This document shows positions 1 to 51,900 of a stretch of DNA of 64,000 nucleotides, piece after piece. Source of the stretch: Pseudeuparius sepicola (taxonomy: Eukaryota > Arthropoda > Insecta > Coleoptera > Anthribidae); assembly GCA_963920635.1 (NCBI GenBank), contig OY987298.1:41075787-41139786 (forward strand), in the 5' to 3' direction. The translations under genes and the position numbers were made by a program. Position 1 is the first letter of the stretch. Each line of letters begins with the position of its first letter. Under the pieces are notes generated by a model. That model was not told the origin of the DNA, ran no database searches, and saw nothing but the letters and a program-made list of their open reading frames with translations.

Positions 1-505
1 CACATAATTATGTGAGTATTATTTATTCAAACACTTACAAACAATACCATAATTTTATAGTCACATGGTAAGTGTTAAAAAGTACTAATTTCGCTTAGAT
101 GGTCCGCAAAACGTTCAAGTTCTTTTGTGGCAAGACTCCTCTTTCTATCGTTCGACATAGTATCTAGTCCCAGACACCAAGATATTCACTAAACTGCAGT
201 TAAAAACACGAGAACCACCGCTGTTTACGCACCAACCGACGCTAATATCGCCAGAGATCACGTGCCTGGAAATTGCAGTGTTGCCACTGTAATTTGAATG
301 ACACCACCAAACTATTAAAAAAAAAGTGGAAGCCACGACCTGGATGTTGACTAATCTCGATATAAAAGTGCGTAAACTGTGTTCGTGCAGGATACACAAC
401 CGCATGAATGTGCTCATTTTTGGTGTATCAAATATGAACACATAGGTTGAGTAGAATATTTTTTTGTGTATTAAGGGCAATACACGCAGGGGTTAACGTG
501 TTAAA
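1..505 (-). mobile_element. Possible end of a piggyBac-like element
   Basis: Read on the minus strand, this stretch ends in TTAA (501-504), then CACGTT, a second TTAA (493-496), CCCCTGCG, and a third TTAA at 471-474. This resembles the ends of the clearer piggyBac-like element at 42011-43217 (TTAA-CACGTTCACTGCGGCG). An open frame of 111 codons (145-480, minus) follows, but I recognise no transposase motif in it. The other end would lie outside the window. The call rests only on the terminal resemblance and the TTAA sites. Confidence 0.3.
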
Positions 506-13838: not shown

Positions 13839-14250
13839 TGTTATATCCGACCTCAAGCATCACCTTGATCATAACCTTGTTTTTACCCTTGATTCTGTTT
13901 ACTGTTGGATATTATGTTCTCATTCTCTATTGTTCAAGATGCTTACTACAAAGATATCATTTTCCATTGTATATTGTTCTAGAATGATTACTAGAACATA
14001 TCATATTCCTTTTGAGTATTGTTAAAACTTGCTTACTGCAAGAATTGCAGAATTTGATCTTCCCTTTGTCTTTATATTCTTTTCCCATGAGAACCACAAC
14101 ACCTCAGCATAACAGATCTGTATAAATAGGACCTAGTAAAGTAAGAGTGTTAATTCTAGTCTTGTCTGTAGTCTAAGCCGAAACTCTGTAACTCGCGTTA
14201 CTCGAATAAAAGTTTTTTAAAAAGTCTTCGTCTTCACGTCGCCCGTAACA
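13839..14250 (+). repeat. Errantivirus 5' LTR
   Basis: 412 bp with TGTTA...TAACA ends. A TATAAATA box at 14121 and AATAAA at 14205 place the transcription start and polyadenylation signal, giving a U3-R-U5 layout. Identical to the 3' LTR by eye. Confidence 0.95.
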
Positions 14251-14590: not shown

Positions 14591-15787
14591 ATGCCGAATA
14601 ACGAAGCTATAAACTCTAATGTAAACAATGAAGCAAACGCTTCAAATAACGACGAAGTACCATTTAAATTAAGCGAAATATTTTCTATCATCCCTGAATA
14701 CGATGGGGATCAAATCAATTTAAATACTTTTATCATTGCATGTGATAGGGCCATGCAAATGACTGTTGGCGACCAAGCCATTTTACTTGTTATAAAAATT
14801 AAAAATCAATTAAAGGGACGTGCAGCCCAACTCATTAATTCAAGAGATTTGAGTACCTGGCGCGAAATCAAACAATTACTTAACGTTCATTTCGGAGATC
14901 CTCGCGATCTAACTTCATTAATTCAAGATTTACAAAGAATGTGTCAATCCCAAAATGAAAATGCTTTGACTTTTGTAGGCAGAGTTCAAACTCACTGCTC
15001 GAAAATGTATGCCGCAATAGGAAAACAAAGCCTTCTCACTAGGGAACAAAAAGAATCGCAAGCTACATTAATCGATAGCATGTGCCTAAATACAGTTTTG
15101 ACAGGTTTAGAACCAAGAATAGGGCAACTAATTCGTGCTAGCAATCCACCCAACATGATGGATGCTATAGCTTTAATTAAGAGAGAATTGCAACTTTCTT
15201 ATTTTGAAAATCAAAAATTTCAGAGGCAAAATCGTGTACCAGTCTTCAATAATAATGTCAAAAGAACCAGTAATAATTTTCCAAAATTTTGTAATTATTG
15301 CAAAAGAAATGGACATACTATCAATGAATGTCGAACTAAAAATCAAAATAATTATTACAGAAATGGTCCAAATCCTTCTAGCTACTATAACAATTTCCAA
15401 AATAACTCCCAAAGAAATAATTTCTCCCAAAATAGGTTCCATCAAAGACCATCTTTTCCTCAGCAAAATAATTTTCAAACTCCTTCTTTCCAACCTAGGA
15501 ATCACCCTCAAAACTTCCAACCAAGAAATCAACCTCCTAGAAATTTTTCTAATAATGCTCCAAGAAATAACTTCCCCAGAACTTTTAATAATAATTCAGG
15601 TTTCCAGCCTTCTAATCAAAATTTTACTCCTAGATTCCCAAATTCAAATCCAAATAACCAAAATAGAACTCCCCAACAACATTATCTGGGCCAAAGCGAA
15701 AATTTTCAATTAACAGCCTCGGACCAGAATCCTATTCCCAACTTCAAGAATCTTGGTATGACCAATACGGACCAAACGTTTGCATAA
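14591..15787 (+). CDS. gag: Errantivirus Gag polyprotein
   Basis: 398 codons, structural protein that assembles the particle and packages the RNA. The first ~200 residues are helical and capsid-like (residues about 20-190, with a W-R-E-I-K-Q-L-L segment typical of Gypsy gag). A CCHC zinc knuckle (C-x2-C-x4-H-x4-C) is seen at 15290-15331, residues 234-247. The tail is very rich in Asn, Gln, Phe and Pro, suggesting a disordered nucleic-acid-binding region. The start is the first ATG after the leader. The 3' end overlaps the pol frame, which is shifted by -1. Confidence 0.93.
   Translation: MPNNEAINSNVNNEANASNNDEVPFKLSEIFSIIPEYDGDQINLNTFIIACDRAMQMTVGDQAILLVIKIKNQLKGRAAQLINSRDLSTWREIKQLLNVHFGDPRDLTSLIQDLQRMCQSQNENALTFVGRVQTHCSKMYAAIGKQSLLTREQKESQATLIDSMCLNTVLTGLEPRIGQLIRASNPPNMMDAIALIKRELQLSYFENQKFQRQNRVPVFNNNVKRTSNNFPKFCNYCKRNGHTINECRTKNQNNYYRNGPNPSSYYNNFQNNSQRNNFSQNRFHQRPSFPQQNNFQTPSFQPRNHPQNFQPRNQPPRNFSNNAPRNNFPRTFNNNSGFQPSNQNFTPRFPNSNPNNQNRTPQQHYLGQSENFQLTASDQNPIPNFKNLGMTNTDQTFA
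15700..15706 (+). promoter_or_regulatory. Putative -1 ribosomal frameshift heptamer A AAT TTT
   Basis: In the gag frame the bases are A AAT TTT, fitting the X XXY YYZ slippery pattern. It lies within the only overlap where both frames are open (pol frame open from 15667; gag stops at 15787). The second errantivirus in this window has the same heptamer at the same place (45954-45960). No downstream pseudoknot was identified by eye. Confidence 0.6.
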
Positions 15788-18700
15788 ATACCGTTGACAA
15801 TAGTAACTTATATTATATTAAAGATAATACCGATAAGTACAAAATTTTAATTGACACAGGAGCTGGTATTTCAATTTTCAAACCAGAGACGGTTCAGCAA
15901 TTTTTAAATCGATGTCCAGAAAATTTTCAAATTAAAGGTATTTCTGGCCAATCAATTCCTATTACTGAAGCGGTATTTGTTTCTTTTACGGGTCCTCTTT
16001 CTCCCCATAAAGTTTATATTTGCGATCTAGATATAGGATTCGACGGAATTTTAGGCGCTGACTTTTTAGAAAGGTACGGTGCAGTAGTAGATTTTAGGAA
16101 TAAACAATTAATTACGTACTATAAGGTACACGAATTACTTAAAGACGGAGATGAATTAAACGAGTTAACGAATAATAATGATAATAATAATCGAGTCGTT
16201 TATAAAAGACACGTTAATGTTGACGAAAGGTACGACAGCCTTCATATAAACGCTTATGAACGAAATAATAATAATAATAATAATGATAATACGGAAAATA
16301 TAAATAATTTTGAAAGCGAAAATACGAGTTATAATATAAATAAGGTTACGATAGAACCGCGTTGCGAGAAAATATGCAAGTTTCATACGAATAAATATAC
16401 GAATAAAGAAATGATTTTATGCGCACAACGAGTAGAAAAGGTATACGTGCCAAATGCTATAGTAAAAATAAACGAAGACGGTAATTTTTATACGACGATA
16501 TTAAACGCTAATGCCATAACAAAGGATATTTGTTTCGAAGAATTTGAATTTGAGCCTTACATTAAAGAAACGAACGCTAGTAGTAATAGTATTTGTAATT
16601 TTAATAAAACGAAAAGCAGAGTAGAAGAAATAAAAGAATCATTAAGGCTAGAACATTTAAACGAAGAAGAAAAAGAATTAATTACTAATTTATGCTTGAA
16701 TTTTGAAGATATATTTTACTTTGACGGAGATTTCCTAAGTTTCACTAATGAAATAAAACATACTATCGATACAGGCGACGCTAAGCCAATTTTTACTAAA
16801 TCTTATCGATATCCACAAGTTCACAAGGAAGAAGTAAAAACACAAATTAATAAAATGCTTTCTCAAGGAATAATTAGACCTTCTGTTTCACCATGGTCGT
16901 CCCCAGTATGGGTCGTTCCAAAAAAATTAGACGCTTCAGGCAAACAAAAATGGAGAATCGTAATTGATTATCGGAAATTAAATGAATTAACAGTTAATGA
17001 CAGGTATCCACTGCCTAATATTTCAGATATATTAGATCAGTTGGGTAATTGCCATTATTTTACTACTTTAGATTTGGCTTCTGGTTTTCAACAAATTGAA
17101 ATGAATCCAGAAGACATTTCGAAAACTGCTTTTTCCGTTGAAAATGGACATTTCGAATATTTACGTATGCCCTTTGGCCTTCGTAATGCGCCCTCAACCT
17201 TTCAGAGGGTTATGGATAATATACTAATGGGGATACAAAACGAAAAGTGCTTAGTTTACATGGACGACATTATTATTTATTCTTCCACAATTAATGAACA
17301 TATCTCTCGTATTACTGAAGTTTTTCAAAGATTAAGAAATTCAAATCTAAAAATACAGCCAGATAAGCGTGAATTCTTACGAAAAGAAGTAATTTATTTA
17401 GGACATGTTATTACACCTGAAGGGGTCAAACCAAATCCACAAAAAGTACAAGCTGTTATCGATTTTCCTCAACCTGCCAATACTAAACAAATTAAACAAT
17501 TTTTGGGTCTTACTGGTTACTACAGGAAGTTTATTCCAAACTTCGCAAAAATGACAAAGCCTTTAACTCGACTTTTAAGAAAAGACGTACCATTTATTTT
17601 TGATAAAGATTGTCGTGAATCTTTCGAACAACTTAAAAATGCATTAATAACTTCACCAATTCTAATATATCCTAATTTTGAAAAAGAATTTGTTTTAACT
17701 ACAGATGCAAGCGCTTTTGCTGTAGGCGCGGTACTTTCGCAAGGACCTGTTGGAAATGATCTTCCCATAGCATACTTTTCAAGAACCTTAAGTCCAGCAG
17801 AAATGAAATATAGCGTTATAGAGAAAGAACTTTTGGCAATAATTGCTGCCGTAAAAAACTATAGACCTTATCTTTTCGGACGAAAATTCTTATTGGTTAC
17901 AGATCATAGACCTTTAACCTGGCTTTTCTCAATAAAAGATCCCGGTAGTCGTTTAGCACGTTGGCGACTTAAATTAGAAGAATATAATTATCAAATAATT
18001 TATAAACCTGGAAAAATTAATCGAAATGCCGACGCTTTATCTCGAATCAAAATCAATCATATAAAAGAAGCTGTTTCCTTTCATACTTCCCTAGACGAAC
18101 CATCTACTTCCCATGATAATCCTCAAGACATTGACCCGCCTATTGACAATAATGAGACTGACGAAATTGCTATAATCTGTAATGAATTTGACAGATTTTT
18201 TGATCTATACAAGACGACTTCAATGATCGACTATTCTAAAATCCAATATACAAATAATCAACTTTTAGACAAAACACACAAGGACATTGTACTAATTTTT
18301 CAACAAGACAAATTAACAGACCTTCACGAAAAAGTTATTGATGATTTACTTGAGCTAAATCCTGATTTTAACTATAATAAAGCAAATGTTCTTTCCAGTC
18401 AAACCGTAGCTAAAAGAAAATATTATATAATTCCTGTTCCTTTTAATTTTGAAACCGCAATACAAGTACTCTTCATATCTCTTTATTACAGTAAAGATAT
18501 ATTCGAAGAAAATAAAACTTATTACATTGAAAACAATCCAGATTTTCCAATTTTAGAAATGTTTAATTTTTTGTTCTCAGATAAAAATTTCCAACTAACA
18601 ATTTGTCAGAACATTGTGACTATACCAGACGAAGACCAAATACCTATAATAATAGATCAATTTCATTCAGGCAAGACAAACTTACATCGAGGAATAAACG

Positions 18701-20166
18701 AAACAATTAGACGCATCAAACAAAAATATAATTGGACAGGACTAACTAAAGACGTCGAAACATTTATTCGGCAGTGCGAAATCTGCCAAAAGACAAAAAT
18801 TTGTAGACAAAACTTGGACAGTCCCTTAGTTATTACCGAAACTCCTAAAACTCCTTTCGAAAGAATAAATATCGACATCCTAGAAATCCCAGTAAAAAAT
18901 AATATCCTTACCATAAGAGACGAACTAACAAAATTTACCCAAGCTTATGCACTTCCTAATAAAACAGCGAGATCTGTAGTAGACGCTCTTTTACTCTATT
19001 TTCAACATTTTGGAACTCCTTTAAGAATCCATTGCGATGTAGGTAAAGAATTTAATAATCAATTAATGAAAGATCTTTGTAAATTATACAATATAAAATT
19101 AACTTTCTCTAGTGTTAGTCATCCGCAATCAAATGGCTCCTTAGAAAGATTTCATGCCACCTTAACTGAAATGATACGCGCATGTAGTACAGAAAATCCT
19201 AACGAACACCCATTTCAAATGCTCCCTTACGCTTGTATAGCATATAGCAATTCTATAAATAAAACACACGGCTTTACTCCTTACGAATTGCTATTCGGTC
19301 ACACCTCGTCTCGACCTCCAGAAGTTTTGTATAATCAGCAAGAATTAATCTCTAAGTACGTTCGCGATTTAAACAATAAAATAAAGCATTATTATGAAGT
19401 GGCAAGAAAGCGTACGGATATGCGCAAGCAAAAAGCAAAACAGCGATTTGATACACACGTTTCGGAGCAGCGACAATTTCGCGTAGGAGAAAAGGTTTAT
19501 GTCAAGGAGTCCCAAATAAAAAATAAACTAGCTAACAAATTTAATGGACCCTATAAAATTAAAGAAATTTATACGAATTCAGCTTTGCTACATAACCCAA
19601 TTACTAACCAAACTACAAAAATGAATTTTGATATGCTAAAGAAATGTCACGAATTACAGGAAGAAGAACTAACGGTTAAAGAATTCTTTTATACTCTAGA
19701 TCGAAAAATCCCTATTGAAAATAATAACGTTTCCATTGAACTGGGCAATTTATTTGCTGCCCCTGAAAATATTTCATTAGCTCACTGTGTATCTAAGGAT
19801 TTAGAAATGAATGCAGGAATTGCAAAAGAATTTAAGAATAAATTTGGACACGTAGATGAACTAAAAAATCAAAATAAGTCAATTGGTGAAATAGCAGTAC
19901 TTCAACTTCCGACAAGAAATATTTATTATTTAATAACTAAAGAATTTTTCTATTATAAACCAACTTATGCTAATTTATTTAATTGCTTGAAGGAATTACG
20001 AACAAATTGTCTCGAGAGCACTGATGAAAAAGATAAAATTATAGCTATACCCAAGTTAGCTTGTGGATTAGACAAATTAGATTGGGACACAGTTCTCCCT
20101 ATGATCAAATATATTTTCAAAAATACTGATATTAAAATAATTTGTTATATCGAACCAAGTTCCTAA
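15706..20166 (+). CDS. pol: Errantivirus Pol: protease-RT-RNase H-integrase-macrodomain
   Basis: Fully open, about 1486 codons, expressed in the -1 frame after gag; it has no ATG before 16411, which lies downstream of the protease. Protease: D-T-G at 15853-15861 and D-G-I-L-G-A-D near 16039. An Asn-rich linker coded by AAT/GAT runs follows. RT: Y-M-D-D at 17257-17268. RNase H: T-D-A-S near 17701. Integrase: H-H-C-C zinc finger at about 18664-18785, catalytic Asp at 18874 and 19036 and Glu at 19144, then a G-P-Y motif near 19543. A TARG1-like macrodomain (19729-20163) ends the protein. All catalytic motifs are intact, so this Pol may be active. The last 25 bases overlap the longest env frame. 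Confidence 0.93.
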   Translation, partial: SINSLGPESYSQLQESWYDQYGPNVCINTVDNSNLYYIKDNTDKYKILIDTGAGISIFKPETVQQFLNRCPENFQIKGISGQSIPITEAVFVSFTGPLSPHKVYICDLDIGFDGILGADFLERYGAVVDFRNKQLITYYKVHELLKDGDELNELTNNNDNNNRVVYKRHVNVDERYDSLHINAYERNNNNNNNDNTENINNFESENTSYNINKVTIEPRCEKICKFHTNKYTNKEMILCAQRVEKVYVPNAIVKINEDGNFYTTILNANAITKDICFEEFEFEPYIKETNASSNSICNFNKTKSRVEEIKESLRLEHLNEEEKELITNLCLNFEDIFYFDGDFLSFTNEIKHTIDTGDAKPIFTKSYRYPQVHKEEVKTQINKMLSQGIIRPSVSPWSSPVWVVPKKLDASGKQKWRIVIDYRKLNELTVNDRYPLPNISDILDQLGNCHYFTTLDLASGFQQIEMNPEDISKTAFSVENGHFEYLRMPFGLRNAPSTFQRVMDNILMGIQNEKCLVYMDDIIIYSSTINEHISRITEVFQRLRNSNLKIQPDKREFLRKEVIYLGHVITPEGVKPNPQKVQAVIDFPQPANTKQIKQFLGLTGYYRKFIPNFAKMTKPLTRLLRKDVPFIFDKDCRESFEQLKNALITSPILIYPNFEKEFVLTTDASAFAVGAVLSQGPVGNDLPIAYFSRTLSPAEMKYSVIEKELLAIIAAVKNYRPYLFGRKFLLVTDHRPLTWLFSIKDPGSRLARWRLKLEEYNYQIIYKPGKINRNADALSRIKINHIKEAVSFHTSLDEPSTSHDNPQDIDPPIDNNETDEIAIICNEFDRFFDLYKTTSMIDYSKIQYTNNQLLDKTHKDIVLIFQQDKLTDLHEKVIDDLLELNPDFNYNKANVLSSQTVAKRKYYIIPVPFNFETAIQVLFISLYYSKDIFEENKTYYIENNPDFPILEMFNFLFSDKNFQLTICQNIVTIPDEDQIPIIIDQFHSGKTNLHRGINETIRRIKQKYNWTGLTKDVETFIRQCEICQKTKICRQNLDSPLVITETPKTPFERINIDILEIPVKNNILTIRDELTKFTQAYALPNKTARSVVDALLLYFQHFGTPLRIHCDVGKEFNNQLMKDLCKLYNIKLTFSSVSHPQSNGSLERFHATLTEMIRACSTENPNEHPFQMLPYACIAYSNSINKTHGFTPYELLFGHTSSRPPEVLYNQQELISKYVRDLNNKIKHYYEVARKRTDMRKQKAKQRFDTHVSEQRQFRVGEKVYVKESQIKNKLANKFNGPYKIKEIYTNSALLHNPITNQTTKMNFDMLKKCHELQEEELTVKEFFYTLDRKIPIENNNVSIELGNLFAAPENISLAHCVSKDLEMNAGIAKEFKNKFGHVDELKNQNKSIGEIAVLQLPTRNIYYLITKEFFYYKPTYANLFNCLKELRTNCLESTDEKDKIIAIPKLACGLDKLDWDTVLPMIKYIFKNTDIKIICYIEPSS
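19729..20163 (+). other. TARG1/OARD1-type macrodomain at the Pol C-terminus
   Basis: About 145 residues (roughly 1107-1251 counted from the Met at 16411), in frame with integrase. Family features in order: G-N-L-F, L-A-H-C-V-S-x-D, M-x-A-G-I-A-x-x-F-K, F-G, then Y-Y-L-I-T-K, K-P-T-Y-x-N-L and A-C-G-L-D-K-L-x-W. In human OARD1 (TARG1) the hydrolysis of ADP-ribose from glutamate/aspartate uses Lys84 (Y-L-I-T-K) and Asp125 (C-G-L-D). Both are present here, as Lys1177 (codon 19939) and Asp1221 (codon 20071). The length matches the host enzyme, suggesting capture of a whole host gene. Function in the virus is inferred: removal of ADP-ribose from viral or host proteins in the particle or pre-integration complex. 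Confidence 0.88.
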
Positions 20167-22054
20167 TTCTGAAACTTCGTTACAGATTTTCTTTGTTCGC
20201 TACCGCTATGGCACAATATACACTGCGACCAATTAATAACACCATAGGCGTGTTCTATCAAGAGCAATCCGGACTCAAAATTTCTAATGACAAGTGGAGT
20301 TTATTGGTATATAAAGACATTTCATCTCTAAAAACAACATTCGAAAATAATAATAAAATTTTAGAAAATATGCAATTTATAATTCAACCAAAAGACGTAC
20401 GAATGGCCGCCTTTCTAAGCGAAGTTAAGTCACATCTCACTTTACTAAATCAACTTTCCGAAAACATTGCGCTCAAATTTGAAGAATTGGCTATTGATGT
20501 AAGAAGATATAAAAGAGGTTTAATTAATGGTTTAGGGTCAGTTTGGAAATTTATTACCGGAAATTTAGACGCTTCAGACGGACAGTATTATAACGATTGT
20601 ATCGACAAAATTAACAGAGACGAACACGAATTAGAAAAATTAATGAAAAAACAAATTTTAGTAACTACTTCAGTTATCAAAAACTTTAACGACTCTATCA
20701 ACAAATTACAAATTGATGAAATTACTTTTAATAATGACATAAAACAAATCGAAAATTACATTTATAACATTTCTGATAATTTTAATTATTACACTGCAAA
20801 ATTACAAGTTTTAGAGATGGCCGAAAGACTCCTAGAATCCTATACCTTTATCGAAAGCAATTTAAATGACATTCTAAACTCTATTACTTTTGCAAAGTTA
20901 CATATTATTCACACGTCAGTTATAACTCCTGAAGACCTGGTTCATCATTTGCAAATAATCGCTCAAACTTTAAACAAAAATAATTTGCCCTTAACTCCTC
21001 AACTTCTAAATGTTGCAACTTATCTTGATTTTATAGAACTAAAGGTTTTTCAAACAGAAAATAGACTTGTTTTTATATTAGACATTCCTTTAGTAGAACC
21101 TCAATGGTATACTCTTTATAGAATTTATCCTATTCCAATTTTCGACAATAAAACTGGATTTTATCACATGGTATCCACTGATACTAAATTTGTAGCAAAA
21201 AGCGATGACCCAACTCTCTATGTAATTCTCTATGATATAAAAAATTGTAAAGAACTAGCATTTGATTTAATAATGTGCAAAGATTTATATCCTACTCCTA
21301 TTGACTCACATTCAAGATGTGAAGCTCAATTATTAGAGGTAAAAACCCATTTACCTAATACTTGTCACAATTTCAATTGAAAGTTACAATGTACAATTGA
21401 TTCAAGAGAATCAATGGTTAATAATTTTAAGTGAAATATTTCCTATAACTATTAAGTGCAAAAATCAAAATCCTTTGACTATAATGCTAGACAAAACTTC
21501 AATTTTAACGTTAAAATCTGAATGCATTGCTTATATTGGAAGTACCTACTAAAATTCAAACGAAAAATTTAAATAAATCTAATCAAACCTATAAATTTCA
21601 CCCAATTAATATACCATTTGAATGTTGCAAAGAAACTCCAAATAAACTAAAATATCCTGACTTAAAACCTTTACAACTAAATAAATTTAATTATGACGAT
21701 TTAAATGTCGCAAAGCATAAATTAGACGAATATGCAAAGGATCTTGATAATATTATTAACGAACCAACTGTAAATAAGTATACGCCAATATTGACATATC
21801 TATCCATTACTTTAATCATACTTTTAATTATTGTGTACTTTTATTTTAAATGTAAAAAGTCTAGGAACATTAAAATAGGCATTATTACTACTAACAACGG
21901 AGACGATCCTCCACAACCTCCTAGAACTCGAAATCACGTTTTTCAAAATTTAAGAAAATTTGTTACTGTCAAAAGAAGACCTTCGTATAGATTGGACGAA
22001 CCTCGCGAAGAAGAAGAAATTGAACTAAATTCTAATACTAAAACATATGCCTAA
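20142..22054 (+). pseudogene. env: Errantivirus Env (F-protein-like), frameshifted
   Basis: Membrane glycoprotein for cell entry, related to baculovirus F proteins. The first open part ends at 21380. It has a furin-type R-x-x-R site (cleavage after 20516) directly followed by a Gly-rich fusion-peptide-like segment, then long helical stretches. The last part (21527-22054) is in another frame and carries a transmembrane segment near 21780-21850 and a charged tail. Two frame changes separate the parts, near 21360-21380 and near 21540, so the copy as given cannot make a full Env. The natural start is probably supplied by splicing from 14466. Since gag and pol are intact and the LTRs identical, the shifts are either recent or sequence errors. 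Confidence 0.85.
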
Positions 22055-22102: not shown

Positions 22103-22514
22103 TGTTATATCCGACCTCAAGCATCACCTTGATCATAACCTTGTTTTTACCCTTGATTCTGTTTACTGTTGGATATTATGTTCTCATTCTCTATTGTTCA
22201 AGATGCTTACTACAAAGATATCATTTTCCATTGTATATTGTTCTAGAATGATTACTAGAACATATCATATTCCTTTTGAGTATTGTTAAAACTTGCTTAC
22301 TGCAAGAATTGCAGAATTTGATCTTCCCTTTGTCTTTATATTCTTTTCCCATGAGAACCACAACACCTCAGCATAACAGATCTGTATAAATAGGACCTAG
22401 TAAAGTAAGAGTGTTAATTCTAGTCTTGTCTGTAGTCTAAGCCGAAACTCTGTAACTCGCGTTACTCGAATAAAAGTTTTTTAAAAAGTCTTCGTCTTCA
22501 CGTCGCCCGTAACA
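22103..22514 (+). repeat. Errantivirus 3' LTR
   Basis: 412 bp, the same sequence as 13839-14250 by eye, followed by the TGTA target duplication. Confidence 0.95.
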
Positions 22515-27610: not shown

Positions 27611-30600
27611 GGGGAAAGTGGGGCACATTAACTGTAGGGGCACATTCAACCATCGCTTCTTATTCCATTCGCGGTTCGAATTTAGCGCCGAAAAAATTTG
27701 ACAGTACTTGTTATCACCCACAAATATGTTTGGGGAAGTTTGAGTGCACTGCTGCGGTTTTTGTTTTCTTAAAAAATTATAGCGTGTTTTTGACCCATTA
27801 AAGGTAAGTTTTTGGCAGTTAAATTTTATCAGATTCTAGTCTAATTTGTTCTGTGTTAAAACTTGTATTAAATGCTGTTATAATCTTGTGTGGTTTGGAG
27901 TCACGGTTTCAGGGGAATTCTAACCTAAAAATGTAAATTGAAAGACCGGTATATAATTTTTTGAATAGAGTAGGTGTGGGGCACATTCAACCACTCTTAT
28001 AGATGGGGTACTTCCAACCGCTGGTTGAATGTGCCCCTTGAAGCAAAACAGAAACATCCAGAGGTATCAAGATAAGTTTTTATATTTCAGATGGTACGAA
28101 ATTATAAGAACAAGACTAACAGATTAGATACCTATAGATGAAAAAGATATGAAAAAAGCAATTAAGGAAGTTTTAAGTAAAAATATGTCGGAGAGAGAAG
28201 CCAGTAGAAATTTTAATATAAAAAGAGATACGCTTCACTCGCGAATTCGCAAATTAAAGCAAAAATATTCACCACAGCGACTATCAACTATGTTTAATAA
28301 TGATTCCGGAAATGAAAATAGTGACTTAGATGAGTTCAGTAATCGTTTTTGCAATAAATATACCATGTGGCAGGTATTTACAACAAGTCAAGAGGAAAAT
28401 TTAGTAAAATATGTGCAAAAATGTTCAGACATGAATTATGGGTTAACTTATAAACAAATAAGAACATTAGCTTATGATTATTCTTGCATTTTACCAAACT
28501 GCAAAATCCCCAATAACTGGAGGCTTAATAAAGCAGCAGGCATAGACTGGCTTCGTGGTTTTATGAAGAGAAATCAAAACATTGCTTTAAGGAAACCAGA
28601 AAGTACGAGCATGGCCCGTTCTACTGGTTTTAATAAGAAAAGTCTAGCAGAGTTTTTCGACAATTACCGCTCACTGTTGGAAAAATATAAATTCAGACCT
28701 GAACAAATATACAATATCGATTAAACTGGAGTAACTACTGTACAGAGAGCTATGAAAGTAGTTTCAACGAAAGGAAAGAAACAGGTGAGCCAAAATGCGT
28801 CAGCGGAAAGGGGAGAACTCACTACTTTTATAGGAATCATAAATGCGGTAGGGATAGCGTTGCCTCCAGTATATGTCTTTCCCCGTTCAAGAAGTCCAGA
28901 TGATTATTTAATTGGTACTCCTACTTCTAGTTTAGCTTTGGGCAATCAGTCTGGCTGGATAACCGGTGATTTATTTGTTCGCGTTTTGGAACATATTAAA
29001 ACTCACACAAATTGTTCTGTAGAGAAGAAAATACTATTACTCATGGATAATCATGAGTCCCATGTCACCGTAAGAGCGATCAATTTTTGTCGTGAGAACG
29101 GGATGGTTATTCTGTCATTTCCTCCTCATACCTCCCATAAGCTTCAACCGCTTATGTACGTTTAAATCGTACTGTTCAGTTGCGTTCAATGACTGGATGA
29201 CTTCAAACCCCAGGAAGACAATTACGATTAGACAGATTACCAATTTAACAAAAATAGCTTATCAGAATGCATTCACTCAAAAAAATATAATAAAATCGTT
29301 TGAAAAACCAGGATTATGGCCTTTGAATACATTGGCTTTTCGGGAGGAAGAGTTTATGCCAAGTTATGCAGAACACCTCGAAGAAGAGGTTACAGTCCCA
29401 CATCAAACTGCTGAAGCATCATTGATAGCAGAAAAATACCATGCTACAACATTCTCAAATACACTTCCACAAACAGAAGTTCAACAATCAGAGTGTAAGT
29501 TTTCTTCAATATTATTGACAATAAGACTACCTACCTTTTCCCATTTTTTCGTAAATAAAAAGTTCCTTAGTTTGGTTGTTTTTTTGACCATTTGATGACT
29601 GATCTATCTAGTATTTTTTAATTACAGGTGAAGCAGAAACATCTGTGACGAAAAATCCTGCAGGACCCGATATTTCCATGACAGTTACACCTCCAATGTT
29701 TCTTTCACCTATCTGTGTAAATCCTGATGGTAGGTATATGGTATATGGGTGTCTGCATAAAATAAAATCACCATTTTCTTCTCTTAGAAAACCTTCAACC
29801 TCCAATCTTACTCCAGAAATTGACGTTATATCCAAGGCCGATTGTAAAAAATACTTTGAAAGAGAATAAAAGAAAAGGAAAATCTAGAATATTTACAGAC
29901 ACCCCAGAAAAGGACCGCTTAGAAGAAATGGAACAAGAACGAAGAAGCCGTAAACAAGTGCAAGAAGAAAGAACCCGCAAGAGGATTTTAAAACAGGTGT
30001 TTCCTACAAACGAACCAAAGAAAGTCACTAAAAAGATAAGAAAAAATAGCACAAGTAGTTCCAATAGTAGCAACGAATCGATTCTTTTAGAATCAGATGA
30101 AATTTCTGATGATTTTAGTGATCTAGATAATCCAAACACACACTTAATTACTGATGATGACGTTCTAAAAGAAAATGACTTTGTTTTAGTACAGTTCCCA
30201 ATGAAAACGACTGTGTTCTATTACGTGGGAAAAATTATTGAACCTTTAAATTTGAATGAGTTTCAAGTAAAATTTCTAAGGCGAAAGGCACCTGGGTACA
30301 AGTTCTATTATCCCGTTGTTGATGATATATCCACAGTTGACCGAAGTGACTTGGTTATAAAGTTACCAGAGCCCAATTCATCAAAAACTGCTAGAACATC
30401 TTCTCTACTAACTTTTAACATTGATTTATCGGCATACGCCATTAAGTAAAGAGGTTGTTTTCAAAATAAAGCATTTTGCAAAATAAAATGTAGTTTTGTT
30501 ACCCTATTAGACCCCGGTTTAAACTGCTCCAGGCTGTGGTTGAATGTGCCCTACCGGTGGGGCACAATAAACTATTTACAGTCAATTTTTTAAATGGCAT

Positions 30601-44346: not shown

Positions 44347-44730
44347 CGTCGGAAAATCGCTTTCCATCAACTACTAGAACCTCGAAGAAGATCCAGAGAA
44401 GACCCAGAACTTCCAGAACGACCAAGGGTAAGAGCCAATCCGTGTATCATTTCCTTGTGTTTTTCTGTGGCAAATTAAGCAGTGGAGTCCCCAAGGTTTT
44501 TCAGAGAATATTATTTTTCCTAGTTAGGTTTAGTTTGGATTTAAGTATAAAATCGTGTTCCTCTGAATATTAAGGCATATAATATTCAAGACACATATTT
44601 AAGTTATTTTTAAGAAAATCATTTTTAATTTAGAAAAACTAAATCTGTCAAAATAGACGAATTAATTGATATTTTAAATAATTTAGCTTTAGATTCAACT
44701 AATTTAGAAGTTGATAATAATACTAACGAA

Positions 44731-45993
44731 ATGCCCGGAAATAATGATTCTCAAGTCAATTATCAGTTACTGAAACTGTTTATTGATACAATTCCGAACT
44801 TTAATGGCGACGAAAATACCTTAGAGATATTTATCGAACATTGCAATTCTCTTTATTCTAATTTTGCAAATCAAAACCCCGAAGATACTTTCAATGGTTT
44901 TCTGCTCCGCGCAATTATTAGTAAATTAGTTGGAACCGCCCTAATCCTTGCAGGTTCGAGACCCGAAGTTCGTAAATGGGATGATTTGAAAGCTTTACTC
45001 CGTCTTACATTTGGTGATCAAAGAAATTTAGATTGCCTTGTGCAAGATCTCATGATAATGCAACCATTTAAAAACGAATCATTTTCTATTTTTGGACAAA
45101 GAATTCAAAAATCCAGAAGCTCAATTTGTTCTAAACTAAAATCTATGAATATTCCAGCAAACGAAAAATTATTACAAATTAAAAACTACGACGAGTTAGC
45201 TCTCAAAACATTTCTACGAGGATTAAACGGCAGAATACAAGATATGGTTCGGCTTAGAAACCCAAATTCAATAGAATTAGCAATTTCATATGTGCTCGAA
45301 GAAGAAAACTTTTTACTTAATCAAAGACAAACTTTATCTTTTAGAAATGTAACTAGGACACCTCAACAACAACCCTTATTTTCACGACCTAATATTCCAA
45401 GAGCAAATTTTTCAAACTCCTACAGTCAAAATGTTCCTCACTATCAACCTCGACCAATTTTTAACGCTTTTCCACAATCTTACCCCCAGCAACAATACCC
45501 TACGCAACAACGACACATCCCGCAACAAAATTATATTCCTTCTCAACCGCAAAATTTTCCCCAGCAACAATTTCGGCAACATTTCCCGTCACAACCAATA
45601 AATATCCAACCACGACCAAATTATAATCAAAAATTCTTTTCAAACAGAGACGTTTTTGGTAACCAAAATGTATTTAGACCCACAGGTCAAGTTCCCAATA
45701 ATAGACCCAAACCGATATCTACCAATACTAGAAATTCCCAACCTCCACCTAAAAAACGACATTATTCCCAATTACACAATATCGAAGAGTACGAAGAACC
45801 CACCTATTCCCAGAATCACGCTCAACCCGAAACTTCCGTTGAATACGACTCTCATTATGACGTATACCCCGATTACTATGAACCCGAACCCTCGACATCT
45901 AACACCACATATGACTTTACAGAAGACTACAATAACTTCCAAGAACAAAACGCAAATTTTTCCATAGACCAAGCTCAAAAACGAATGACGTAA
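44731..45993 (+). CDS. gag: Gag polyprotein of the deleted errantivirus
   Basis: 420 codons, open. The N-terminal ~200 residues are helical and line up in pattern with the Gag at 14591 (e.g. the F-G-D-Q-R-N-L-D-x-L-V-Q-D-L segment against F-G-D-P-R-D-L-T-S-L-I-Q-D-L). The C-terminal half is rich in Gln, Asn, Pro and Arg. Unlike the other Gag it has no CCHC zinc knuckle. The pol frame overlaps its end by -1. Being intact in an otherwise deleted element suggests recent loss of pol or use of Gag by the derivative. Confidence 0.88.
   Translation: MPGNNDSQVNYQLLKLFIDTIPNFNGDENTLEIFIEHCNSLYSNFANQNPEDTFNGFLLRAIISKLVGTALILAGSRPEVRKWDDLKALLRLTFGDQRNLDCLVQDLMIMQPFKNESFSIFGQRIQKSRSSICSKLKSMNIPANEKLLQIKNYDELALKTFLRGLNGRIQDMVRLRNPNSIELAISYVLEEENFLLNQRQTLSFRNVTRTPQQQPLFSRPNIPRANFSNSYSQNVPHYQPRPIFNAFPQSYPQQQYPTQQRHIPQQNYIPSQPQNFPQQQFRQHFPSQPINIQPRPNYNQKFFSNRDVFGNQNVFRPTGQVPNNRPKPISTNTRNSQPPPKKRHYSQLHNIEEYEEPTYSQNHAQPETSVEYDSHYDVYPDYYEPEPSTSNTTYDFTEDYNNFQEQNANFSIDQAQKRMT
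45954..45960 (+). promoter_or_regulatory. Putative -1 frameshift heptamer A AAT TTT
   Basis: In the gag frame the bases are A AAT TTT. The pol frame is open from 45936, and gag stops at 45993, so the heptamer lies in the short two-frame overlap, exactly as in the element at 13839-22514. Confidence 0.6.
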
Positions 45994-45999
45994 TAATAG

Positions 46000-46405
46000 A
46001 CCTTAATCACTTACTTAGCAATTTACCCTACATATACATTCCCGAAATCGACGCAAAATTTTTGATAGACACAGGCAGTTCACGCAGTTTAATAAACCCT
46101 GACCTAGCTTATAAATTCTATCCAAATTCAATTCTTAACGAAAATTTTGGTATACAAACCTCACATGCAGTCACTTCCCATGTTAAATTGCAATAATTCC
46201 TATGTTTCAAAATTTTAACACAAATCAATTTTATAAATTTTATTTGTATGATTTTTCCACGAAATACGATGGACTTATTGGAGTGGATTTAATCAAACTT
46301 TTAAAAGCAAACGTTCTTACTAATGAAGATTTTTTAGTCACACCCTATGCTCAAATTCCTTTGAATTATGATCACACTATGCCTTCAAAAAATTTAAAAA
46401 TATAA
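46000..46405 (+). pseudogene. Protease remnant of the deleted errantivirus
   Basis: D-T-G at 46068-46076 inside F-L-I-D-T-G-S-S marks the aspartic protease, and Y-D-G-L-I-G-V-D-L follows near 46266. A stop and frame change near 46190 separate the two parts. After a few more codons the pol sequence ends and env begins at about 46414. Confidence 0.75.
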
Positions 46406-46415
46406 ATCTCTCTAA

Positions 46416-47738
46416 CGTGGATTATTCAACCTTGGTGGAACGATACAAAAATGGATTTTTGGAACCTTAGATTATTCTGACGCTGAAAAATACGACAACG
46501 CAATTATACAATTAAAAAAGAATCAAGCTAAAATAGTAAAAAATGCTAATTTTCAAATTTCTTTATCAAAAAATTTAATTGGAAAATACGAATCTACACT
46601 TTCCACAATTATCAAAAACCAGCAGAAAATTACTGAACAGATCAATCAAATCCATAATGAAAGTATTTCAGATCAAATAGTTCATTATGTATCAATATCC
46701 AGTATTTTAGATCAAATCTCTTTAAATATTAATATTATTATGAACTTTTTAAATAACGTCGAATCGGCAATTACATTTTCCAAATTACATGTTACTCATC
46801 CTGATATATTTACAGTAGATAATTTAAAGGAAATTTTGAACGAATTAGAAAACCATTATCTTAAAAGCGAAATTTTAAAAATAAATGTTCACTCCTGGTA
46901 CTCAATAGTGAAAACAAACTGCTACTTTTCAAATAATAAATTAATATTTGCCATAGAATTTCCAATTATGTTTCCCAAAATCTACCAATATTTTCATTTA
47001 TTCCCTATTTCTAACAATGAAAATTCCATAATCATTCCTAATAAACCTTATTTGGCTCTGGAAGAAGCATCACTGCAATATATGGAATACCCTTGCACGC
47101 CACTTCAAGACACACTGTATATTTGCGACCAAGAAGAACTTAATTGGGACCCGAGAGAAGACTGCATATCAAATTTAATCCAAGGTAGAAGAAATTCCTG
47201 TTCTCCAGTTCCTATTGAGCAACCATCAATGATTTTTAATAAAATTAACGAAGAGTTCTTAATAATAATCAGCAATATATCAATCACAATTAAAACAAAA
47301 TGTCCTGATGAAATATTCAAATCTATTCAAGGAAAAGTTTTGGTTCAAATCCCGCAAAACTGCAGCATCGAGTACAAGTCACTGAAATTTGGAAATACTA
47401 AAGAAAGCAAACCAGAAAAACCAATATTTTTACCAAAAATTGAAGAAAATTCAAGAAAATTAGCAAAACCCTCAAGAAAACCACTTCGCATCGACCACGT
47501 TCCGTTAGAAAAACTGCATCAATTGAAAGAGTATGTAAAAACAATCAATCCAATCAATTTAGAAGACATCACCGAAAATTCGGCAATCAATTGGCCAATT
47601 TGGACTGTTATTTCTGTTATATGCATTCTAATAATTTGCCTAAATTTAAAGAAGATTTCAATGGTTCTCTCAAGAAAGAAGAAAGAAATCAAGGATCAAT
47701 CGGTTCCGATCGGATTTCCTGCTGGAACCTCAAACTAA
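46416..47738 (+). pseudogene. env: Env C-terminal segment of the deleted errantivirus
   Basis: Open for 440 codons but without its natural start. It opens at the residue before the fusion-peptide-like Gly-rich segment that follows the furin site in Env proteins, so the surface subunit is missing and the membrane-anchored subunit remains. Long helices follow, then the Cys-rich distal part and a transmembrane segment near 47595-47650 with a basic tail. The first ATG in frame is at 46740. Whether any protein is made is unknown. Confidence 0.75.
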
Positions 47739-48962: not shown

Positions 48963-51900
48963 TCATTGATGGTGAAATAAAATCAATTTATGTAGTTCTC
49001 TCCTAACTAAGGGTCCTTGAATTTTTGCAGTATACTTTTTTGATAAATTATATAGTCTAATTTTTGTATAGGCTGCTACTATTTCTTTTATTAAATTGTA
49101 ACTATGATTTTCTTCATTAGGCGATGACACAATATGTTCTTCTAACTCTGGGAAAAGCTTTGAAAACATGAAAAAGAATTTTTGTCCAACTGCTATTATA
49201 AATTTGTTTAAAAAATCTTCCTCCGATGGTATACGGTTATCTGTTGCCTGCAACAAATTTATAATATTGGTTTCAACATTCTGGCATATTTTCACTACAC
49301 CAGCTGATGGTACTTGTAAACCTCCTAAAAAACAAATTAGGACATATTATTTAAAACAATTCATTTTCTTCTAGAATAAATGATATTCCAAAAAGAAAAT
49401 GAGATTAGTTAAAAGTTGATTTTTCAATGCATGCTCGCCGTCAAAATGTTTACACTCCGAGTTAAACTGTAATACTAGGTTAAAATAAATAATAATAAAT
49501 AAAAAGTAGTTTAACTAGCTTGGAATTTAACAGAATATATTGATAAATCTCTAAAAAGACATTACCTCTATTTTTCTTAACAATTATTAGTCTATAACTC
49601 AAATCATCTTCAACAGTTTCCATGTCGCATGAACAACTTGTTAAGCAATCTATACATTTAATTTTTCTCCTTAATATTTTTATTACATAGCCTGCTACGT
49701 ATGTAACTACATTTTTAGAGACATTATCGAGGTCGATGAAACATGTCGTGTCCAGAACTTGGCAATTTCCACCTCTTGGTGATATTTTACTATGCAATAA
49801 GAGCTTCTTAAAATGGACTGTTGCCTCTGATTCTTTAAATTCTGACAGTTGGCAGTCCTTATCTAAAAATTCTATAGCTGTTGCAACACTGCCACTTAAC
49901 GTTTGCGCAGCTAAGTGGACCTAAAGCAAATAAAGTAATAAATGTAAATTACAACAGTTAGTTATACTTACTTTCATTTTCTGTTTATGCCACTGTATAT
50001 GACTGACTCTGATTTTGTTAGCAACATAAAGATTGGTCTTTTCATATACATCATAAAGTCTCGTAACGTAAGCCCAATTTATTATTTTGCCTGATGGATC
50101 CTTAAATTGTTGCAAATTTGCAAAATTATTTCGAATCAACTTTATCATATGGCACACATCAAGAAAACAGAAGACTCTCTGTGCAGGGTTCACAGGATGC
50201 GAGAACCATGGCTTTATATTATGTATGTCCTCCAAATTACATCCCAACTCACGTAACATACCGAAATGAACCGATGGGCCATCACATGTTATGGAAGTCA
50301 CAGTTACACCAACATCGTGCAGTCTTATTAAAGATTCATTGACGAGATTGGCTTTCTCTCTTCCTGTCAATGACTTTATTAAAAAGTAAGCTATGGGAAG
50401 CTTCCAGTGCGACTGGTGGGATACTACCATAAGAACTAAAGCTTCTGATGCAGGTGGCAATGAATCATTATCCACTGGAACACCAATATCTACATAGCCG
50501 ACTGATCTTTTACCATCAAACTCGATCTGCTTCTTTATAGACATTTCATCTAACATTAAAGAACATATTAGTGACCTCCCATTTGCAGTTGATTCATCTG
50601 ATTTATGTTTTAAAACACTAAAAGCTAGATCAATAAAACCAGGGTTACATTCAACATTGCTTGTCCACTTTCTTATGGTAGCCTGGTGTGGTAATGCTAG
50701 TGCAAACTCACTCCGAACATATTCATAAGCTTTGCAAGAATAGAATTGGAGAGTCGCTGCAAATTCTCTTAGGGGTGGTGGATATTTTTCATGAGTGACA
50801 CTTTGGTTTTGAACATTTTTTAAATAGCGAGTCATTAATATATTCGGCACACTATCAAAACTCTTAGATAAATGACTAGTTGCATGCTCAGATAGATAAT
50901 CCTCTTTCTTTAAGTGATTTGCAAGATCTTTTAGGGATGACACTTTTTTTTCCAGAGATTTTATTTTCTTATTGGCACTGTACAGCTTTTTTCGATATTC
51001 TTCCTGTCGTCTTTGTAATTCAATATTTCTTTTCTTTACAGTATTTGGGGATGTACTAAAAATTAAATAAAAAAATATTATTTTCCAAGAATCTGCTAAC
51101 TTGGAGTTTACATTGACATTAAATTTCTGAATGAATATTAAGAGAAAACCTTCTTCTTCATCATCAAAAATTTTGCTTGCAATAAAAATAAGCTTTGGAT
51201 TGTCTTCAATAAAAATGAATGTAAATTTTATTACATGAAAGTTTTGCAATAAAGATTTGCGATTATTTATGGCAACAATTATAAGAGATAAGTAAAAAAT
51301 CGATAAAAATGTTTTCTCCGTTTAAAGGCCTCTTGGATACATAGTGTAAGTCCTTTTTGCTTACCTATAGTTGTGAACAAAATTTATAATACACCTCCTT
51401 CTTTTAGTACTGCTATCAGTACTAGTTCCACTCGCCACTTGTTTTGCACCAACACTATAAAATATATAAAAAAAATACTTAAAATACACTCAGGTGCAAA
51501 AAACCCGGGCCATCTAGTATATTTTCGTATCCTCGTTTTAAATGAACAACAATATGTTTGCCTTTATTTATGTTATTGTTTATTAAAACGAGAATACATA
51601 TTGTTTTTTGAATTGTCCGGAAGGACGTCCTTTATATCAATAAAAAATCAAGTGTAAACTGAAAGCCAAAATATGAAAAAAAACACCCGATTTTGAAAAA
51701 ATATTAGGTGGCCCAGTTTTTTTGCACCTGAGTAATAATATTGGTATTGTTGTGGAATTCGACTTGAAATAAATAGTACTAGACCGTGAGCCAACCACAA
51801 AAACACGTATCATAGAAACCTGGTTAATATCTATAACATAACTTGCCATTAATGGTAGCAAACGAATAAATCAAGCGCCGCACTTATATGCTGCCAGAAA

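Follow-up and report, generated by a model that had tools for sequence, protein, structure and literature searches.

A TARG1/OARD1-type macrodomain at the C-terminus of Pol in an env-bearing, errantivirus-like Ty3/gypsy element of the beetle Pseudeuparius sepicola

In a 64,000-nucleotide stretch of the Pseudeuparius sepicola genome (contig OY987298.1, positions 41,075,787 to 41,139,786; the whole stretch is referred to as the window), the Pol open reading frame (ORF) of a retroelement runs on past the integrase for well over a hundred codons, which raises the question of what this extension encodes and what it may do for the element. The Pol ORF (16411..20166; all features of the element lie on the plus strand) is uninterrupted over 1251 codons from its first ATG and encodes reverse transcriptase (RT), RNase H, a linker, integrase and, as its last 145 codons, a TARG1/OARD1-type macrodomain (19729..20163). 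The translation is continuous from the integrase G-P-Y motif into the macrodomain with no stop between them, and the Pol stop codon (20164-20166) lies ahead of the first ATG of env (20208). An earlier interpretation of this DNA, the sequence-only reading, had given the same coordinates and an intact frame past the G-P-Y motif, and both are correct.

Analyses of the Pol C-terminus indicated that it belongs to the TARG1/OARD1 macrodomains. It matched Pfam Macro above cutoff (E=7.2e-6, 26.4 bits; cutoff 22), and phmmer aligned its residues 5-140 with the human TARG1/OARD1 chains 4j5r, 4j5q, 2eee, 2l8r and 2lgr at 48% identity (E=1.2e-37 to 1.7e-37). The best PDB chain outside TARG1 was a DarTG (E=0.098), so that the domain is nearer to TARG1 than to other macrodomains; scored as a DarG antitoxin against the curated DarG profile, it reached 37.6 bits, far under the cutoff of 250. 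The structure predicted from an alignment of TARG1 relatives, with no templates, had a pLDDT of 96 and superposed on human TARG1 with a root-mean-square deviation of 0.8 A over 139 residues, which is a TARG1 fold.

The two catalytic positions named in the sequence-only reading were borne out as well. Lys71 (codon 19939-19941) and Asp115 (codon 20071-20073) of the domain do not vary among the 39 rows of a family alignment. A hand count from the alignment with human TARG1 and the residue numbers of 4j5r_A places them on human Lys84 and Asp125; residues 1..142 of the model cover 14..152, and the window domain has 3 extra residues between the two sites. Asp125, the counterpart of Asp115, is a catalytic residue of human TARG1. 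Of the 42 positions at which at least 85% of the remaining 38 rows agree, the window domain has the majority residue at 40. On sequence grounds the Pol C-terminus is thus a TARG1/OARD1 macrodomain with a conserved active site, and its fold is a confident prediction.

The element that carries the domain is a recent insertion. It is bounded by two 412-bp long terminal repeats (LTRs; 5' LTR 13839..14250, 3' LTR 22103..22514) with no base difference between them, and each is flanked on its outer side by TGTA, a matching target duplication; therefore the copy is recent and the TARG1 domain was carried along with the insertion. Since it would also be conceivable that a host OARD1 exon had been joined to Pol during assembly or annotation, these borders bear on the nature of the fusion. 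Such a join could claim that no second copy of the TARG1 domain was found within the window. Against it, the domain is in frame, between integrase and env and inside the identical LTRs, its third-position G+C of 0.20 falls within the 0.18 to 0.27 of the other element segments, and independent Pol-TARG1 proteins occur in Harmonia axyridis; a join is largely refuted and hardly credible.

The remaining parts of the element are in agreement with an env-bearing Ty3/gypsy (Metaviridae) element: two LTRs, the target duplication and the order RT-RNase H-integrase were all found. The Gag ORF (14591..15784) had a weak Retrotrans_gag match below cutoff (E=0.0042, 17.7 bits). The Pol frame extends, still open, upstream of its first ATG to 15667 and there contains a protease-like D-T-G-A segment, a motif read by eye. 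RT, RNase H, H2C2 and rve domains were Pfam matches above cutoff. The integrase (approximate borders 18634..19710) consists of the H2C2 zinc-binding part (PF17921, E=1e-16), the rve core (PF00665, E=5.3e-11) and a G-P-Y module recognized by alignment with relatives. The first part of Env (20208..21380 from the first ATG of its ORF) is of the Baculo_F type (E=6.9e-32 for 20142-21377), which is the errantivirus type of Env, although env is interrupted in this copy. By its Env type the element would fit the errantivirus assignment made before; the RT tree was composed of seven TARG1-bearing Pols.

At window positions 44677-47735 lies what is left of another env-bearing element of a different kind, whose gag and env share 31% and 26% identity with those of the first; the first element's RT core, integrase and TARG1 had no match in these remains at E up to 1e-3. 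The window also holds a P-element-type transposase fragment (49924-51249, minus strand; Tnp_P_element and TNP-like RNase H) and HTH_psq together with Tc5-type DNA-binding domains at 28149-28721, which are probably part of a pogo/Tc5-like transposase.

If the domain had been a single accident, relatives of the element should lack it. Of two protein searches that admitted Pol-sized proteins, one had 123 candidates and 3 matches, the other 313 candidates and 8 matches, the query itself included; their reach was limited, as P0044 turned up in one and was absent from the listing of the other. Six further Ty3/gypsy Pols with TARG1 were recovered, namely P0044 and P0045 (both from the ladybird Harmonia axyridis), P0047, P0048, P0049 and P0050, all annotated as 'uncharacterized protein' or carrying no protein name. 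They scored 162 to 185 bits with a TARG1 profile built in the present analysis, and the seven Pol domains, that of the window included, share 37-59% pairwise identity. Judged by these sequences, the Pol-TARG1 fusion is no one-off join and recurs in related elements, but its place in Pol is elsewhere in all six. TARG1 lies between RNase H and integrase in five of them (P0044, P0045, P0047, P0048 and P0049) and between protease and RT in P0050, while only the window Pol carries it after integrase (0/6 relatives). In P0048 and P0049, the Pols nearest to that of the window by RT, the protein ends soon past the integrase C-terminal module. Unlike the five Pols, the window element has no TARG1 in its RNase H-integrase linker (approximate borders 17986..18633), where nothing in Pfam matched the region 17965-18651 at E up to 1 and the TARG1 profile did not match either (best E=1).

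Other proteins with retroelement parts also contain the domain. The partial P0011 (Rhamnusium bicolor) starts with the end motif of RNase H, read by eye, and continues into TARG1. In P0051 (Molorchus minor) TARG1 stands behind Gag-like parts, in the order PNMA-like (below cutoff), CCHC knuckle, TARG1 and CCCH (below cutoff), and P0016, from the same species, is a fragment of TARG1 that is interrupted by sequence matching zf-RVT weakly, below cutoff. Both catalytic residues, the Lys and the Asp of the G-L-D motif, were retained in 10 of 10 aligned retroelement rows (the window, P0044, P0045, P0047-P0051, P0011 and P0028, the last included for its likeness to P0051) and also in P0046.

Several further arrangements were observed in this collection. 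P0044 (residues 567-735) and P0047 carry, behind the intact TARG1, a second, degenerate macrodomain in which the G-L-D motif is lost. P0028 (Brassicogethes aeneus) and P0051 show a weak CCCH zinc-finger match after TARG1; CCCH fingers and ADP-ribose parts in one protein are reminiscent of PARP12/PARP13. P0053 (1015 aa) combines NADAR, TARG1 and an AAA/helicase-like part, and so holds two ADP-ribose-related domains, and P0052 is an Entrophospora protein with a TARG1 match that is not a Pol. P0046 (535 aa) joins a PHD-like finger (below cutoff), TARG1 and a GDSL/SGNH lipase. Because GDSL/SGNH-type lipases are found in retroelement reading frames (PMC5408684), P0046 may be another TARG1-bearing retroelement.

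By pairwise identity, the domains and the RTs rank the relatives differently. The RT core of the window is 73% identical to P0048, 72% to P0049 and 58% to P0045, yet its TARG1 is 42% identical to P0048, 45% to P0049 and 53% to P0045. In a TARG1 tree of 29 rows, a sample with no named insect host OARD1, the ten retroelement rows need 2 changes, compared with a mean of 8.4 after shuffling, and none of 500 shuffles was as low. For clade sets picked after the first tree had been seen, approximately unbiased (AU) tests did not reject a single clade of all ten retroelement rows (p 0.23), disfavoured a TARG1 clade of the window with P0048 and P0049 (p 0.026) and accepted the same clade with P0051 and P0028 added (p 0.128). 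The best tree itself grouped the window with P0044, P0045, P0047 and P0011, at a support of 81/76 that is below firm. A larger TARG1 tree of 53 rows placed the window without support, and the RT/RNase H tree of the seven TARG1-bearing Pols did not settle its position. The domain may possibly have passed from one element to another, and one old acquisition with later changes of position is also compatible with these trees.

With the domain identified and its recurrence established, the question becomes what it might do. We favour, at a probability of about 0.58, the reading that a TARG1 gene was captured in frame as the Pol C-terminus and that Pol delivers an active ADP-ribose hydrolase that clears element proteins or nucleic-acid ends. 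In the steps that we infer for catalytic activity, packaging, target and benefit, a TARG1 gene would have been captured by an env-bearing Ty3/gypsy element and read in frame as the end of Pol; the domain, acting as a mono-ADP-ribose hydrolase, would be made at Pol stoichiometry, be packaged and remain on or near integrase. There it would strip ADP-ribose placed by host transferases on Glu/Asp of element proteins, or on terminal phosphates or bases of element RNA or complementary DNA (cDNA), with the outcome that the products of reverse transcription get to integration. Because it is made within Pol and beside integrase, the domain is well placed to clean cDNA ends or proteins of the element, and the enzyme may help beetle elements past a host defence.

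The known biochemistry of TARG1 offers such substrates. The human enzyme removes ADP-ribose from Glu/Asp, and in vitro its substrates also include ADP-ribose on 5' or 3' terminal phosphates of double-stranded DNA and single-stranded RNA (PMC8053099); it removes thymidine-linked ADP-ribose, and its K84A mutant is inactive (PMC8501950). That insects possess DNA-ADP-ribosylating proteins is indicated by the pierisins of cabbage butterflies, thought to be defensive (PMC8053099). A small molecule, O-acetyl-ADP-ribose or free ADP-ribose, might be the substrate in place of modified macromolecules, as the PDB molecule name of 4j5r, O-acetyl-ADP-ribose deacetylase 1, would suggest, but a macromolecular target seems better suited to fusion with a polyprotein that handles nucleic acids, and we regard this option as very improbable.

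Several observations weigh against the favoured reading of a delivered hydrolase. None of the six related Pols is reported by Pfam Macro above its cutoff: P0044 and P0045 (E up to 0.1) and P0047, P0049 and P0050 (E up to 0.01) gave no match, and P0048 reached 18.9 bits of the 22 required; the assignment of the six to TARG1 is therefore owed to the scores of our own profile. The related Pols compared were all TARG1-bearing ones. In the copy studied the transmembrane and tail part of env lies downstream in a different frame, and env is therefore interrupted. As to the host mark, ADP-ribose in the Drosophila damage response is mainly linked to serine, and in the study concerned the TARG orthologues of Drosophila left mono-serine ADP-ribose in place (PMC10238386). 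The main PARP mark may therefore be beyond the reach of the domain, and serine ADP-ribosylation, the main damage mark of Drosophila, is probably not its target. The proposal of the sequence-only reading that the enzyme counters PARP signalling at DNA breaks is thereby weakened.

Fast evolution of TARG1 was considered and dropped. Compared as protein-level identities, not codons, in two pairs, P0044 and P0047 share 63% in TARG1, 64% in the degenerate macrodomain and 67% in the linker, and 89% in RT, 91% in RNase H and 86% in integrase, whereas between P0048 and P0049 TARG1 (51%) changes no faster than integrase (43-54%). The effect is present in the first pair and absent in the second, and in the first the linker and the degenerate macrodomain are equally changed. 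That TARG1 there changes as fast as linkers is what a functionless passenger, a captured host fragment merely carried along, would show, and a single element copy was read here. For a passenger it would be surprising, however, that 40 of the 42 conserved sites are retained, that the frame is open in a copy with identical LTRs, and that the domain with both catalytic residues stands in eight other proteins with retroelement parts (the six Pols, P0011 and P0051). We consider a passenger quite unlikely.

The main rival concerns the place of the domain. Chromoviruses carry a chromodomain just after the G-P-Y module. The window domain, which lies directly behind that module, could similarly be a reader or tether that binds ADP-ribose marks at DNA breaks and steers integration, with hydrolysis secondary; the loss of G-L-D in the degenerate second macrodomain of P0044 and P0047 is what a binding-only copy might show. 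The full retention of the catalytic Lys and Asp among the aligned retroelement rows speaks against a tether, as does the place of the domain in relatives, at RNase H/integrase, at protease/RT or behind Gag-like parts, positions in which it may fail to remain attached to the end of integrase. A tether is thus unlikely, though it deserves to be kept in mind ahead of the other alternatives.

A broader proposal, which we put forward tentatively and consider less likely than not, is that retroelements of arthropods use TARG1 as a recurring accessory enzyme, in the way that vertebrate retroviruses use dUTPase, and that it was captured or moved several times (behind Gag, at protease/RT, at RNase H/integrase and after integrase). 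The reason would be a defence, so far undescribed, in which the hosts put ADP-ribose on cDNA, RNA ends or particle proteins of retroelements. If the enzyme is active, it would point to ADP-ribosylation as a barrier that retroelements have to overcome and offer a direct handle on the host transferase, and the known carriers of TARG1-like counter-enzymes, RNA and DNA viruses so far, would come to include Ty3/gypsy elements.

Comparison with known systems shows which part of the arrangement is new. Human TARG1/OARD1 (C6orf130) resembles the window domain in sequence, catalytic residues and predicted fold, but it is a stand-alone host enzyme and not the C-terminus of a retroelement Pol, and the bacterial DarG antitoxin is a toxin-antitoxin partner, a family whose cutoff the window domain misses by far. 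The sequence-only reading knew of no such domain in errantiviruses. Judged by title and beginning of abstract, none of the open-licence papers listed describes an errantivirus or gypsy Pol with a fused TARG1 or macrodomain, and this part of the claim stands; its breadth is narrowed by macrodomains in other viruses. Fish epsilon-like endogenous retroviruses occasionally include CNPase or macro-domain reading frames (PMC4977317, citing Basta et al. 2009), a capture too, but as additional ORFs in vertebrate retroviruses. TARG1-like domains are carried by Kadipiro virus VP8 (44% identity), by thrips virga-, flavi- and negev-like viruses and by iridescent viruses, which are RNA or large DNA viruses and not reverse-transcribing, as is true of the alphavirus nsP3 macrodomain, that of an RNA virus. 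Among IMG/VR viral contigs, 124 of 139 candidate stretches encoded a TARG1-like macrodomain, and the 80 kept (L001-L080), many of them on contigs >100 kb, were up to 42% identical to the window domain; neither the integrase query nor the six-Pol alignment found relatives in these contigs. Virus-borne macrodomains, including a retroviral one, are thus already known, and what is new is the in-frame fusion to Pol and its shifting place in Ty3/gypsy elements, as in P0044, P0045 and P0047-P0050, which likewise combine Pol and TARG1 with the domain elsewhere than after integrase.

By analogy, the closest functional parallel is dUTPase, of which the TARG1 domain would be the ADP-ribosylation counterpart, an accessory enzyme at differing positions of Pol. 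Retroviral dUTPase can precede protease, separate RT from integrase or follow integrase (PMC2427051). Rotifer LTR elements have the enzyme between protease and RT (PMC5408684). The enzyme and its substrate are different, but both are accessory enzymes with a variable position in the polyprotein, and dUTPase is thought, according to the same two papers, to have been captured more than once. The parallel in position shifts makes a clean comparative test possible.
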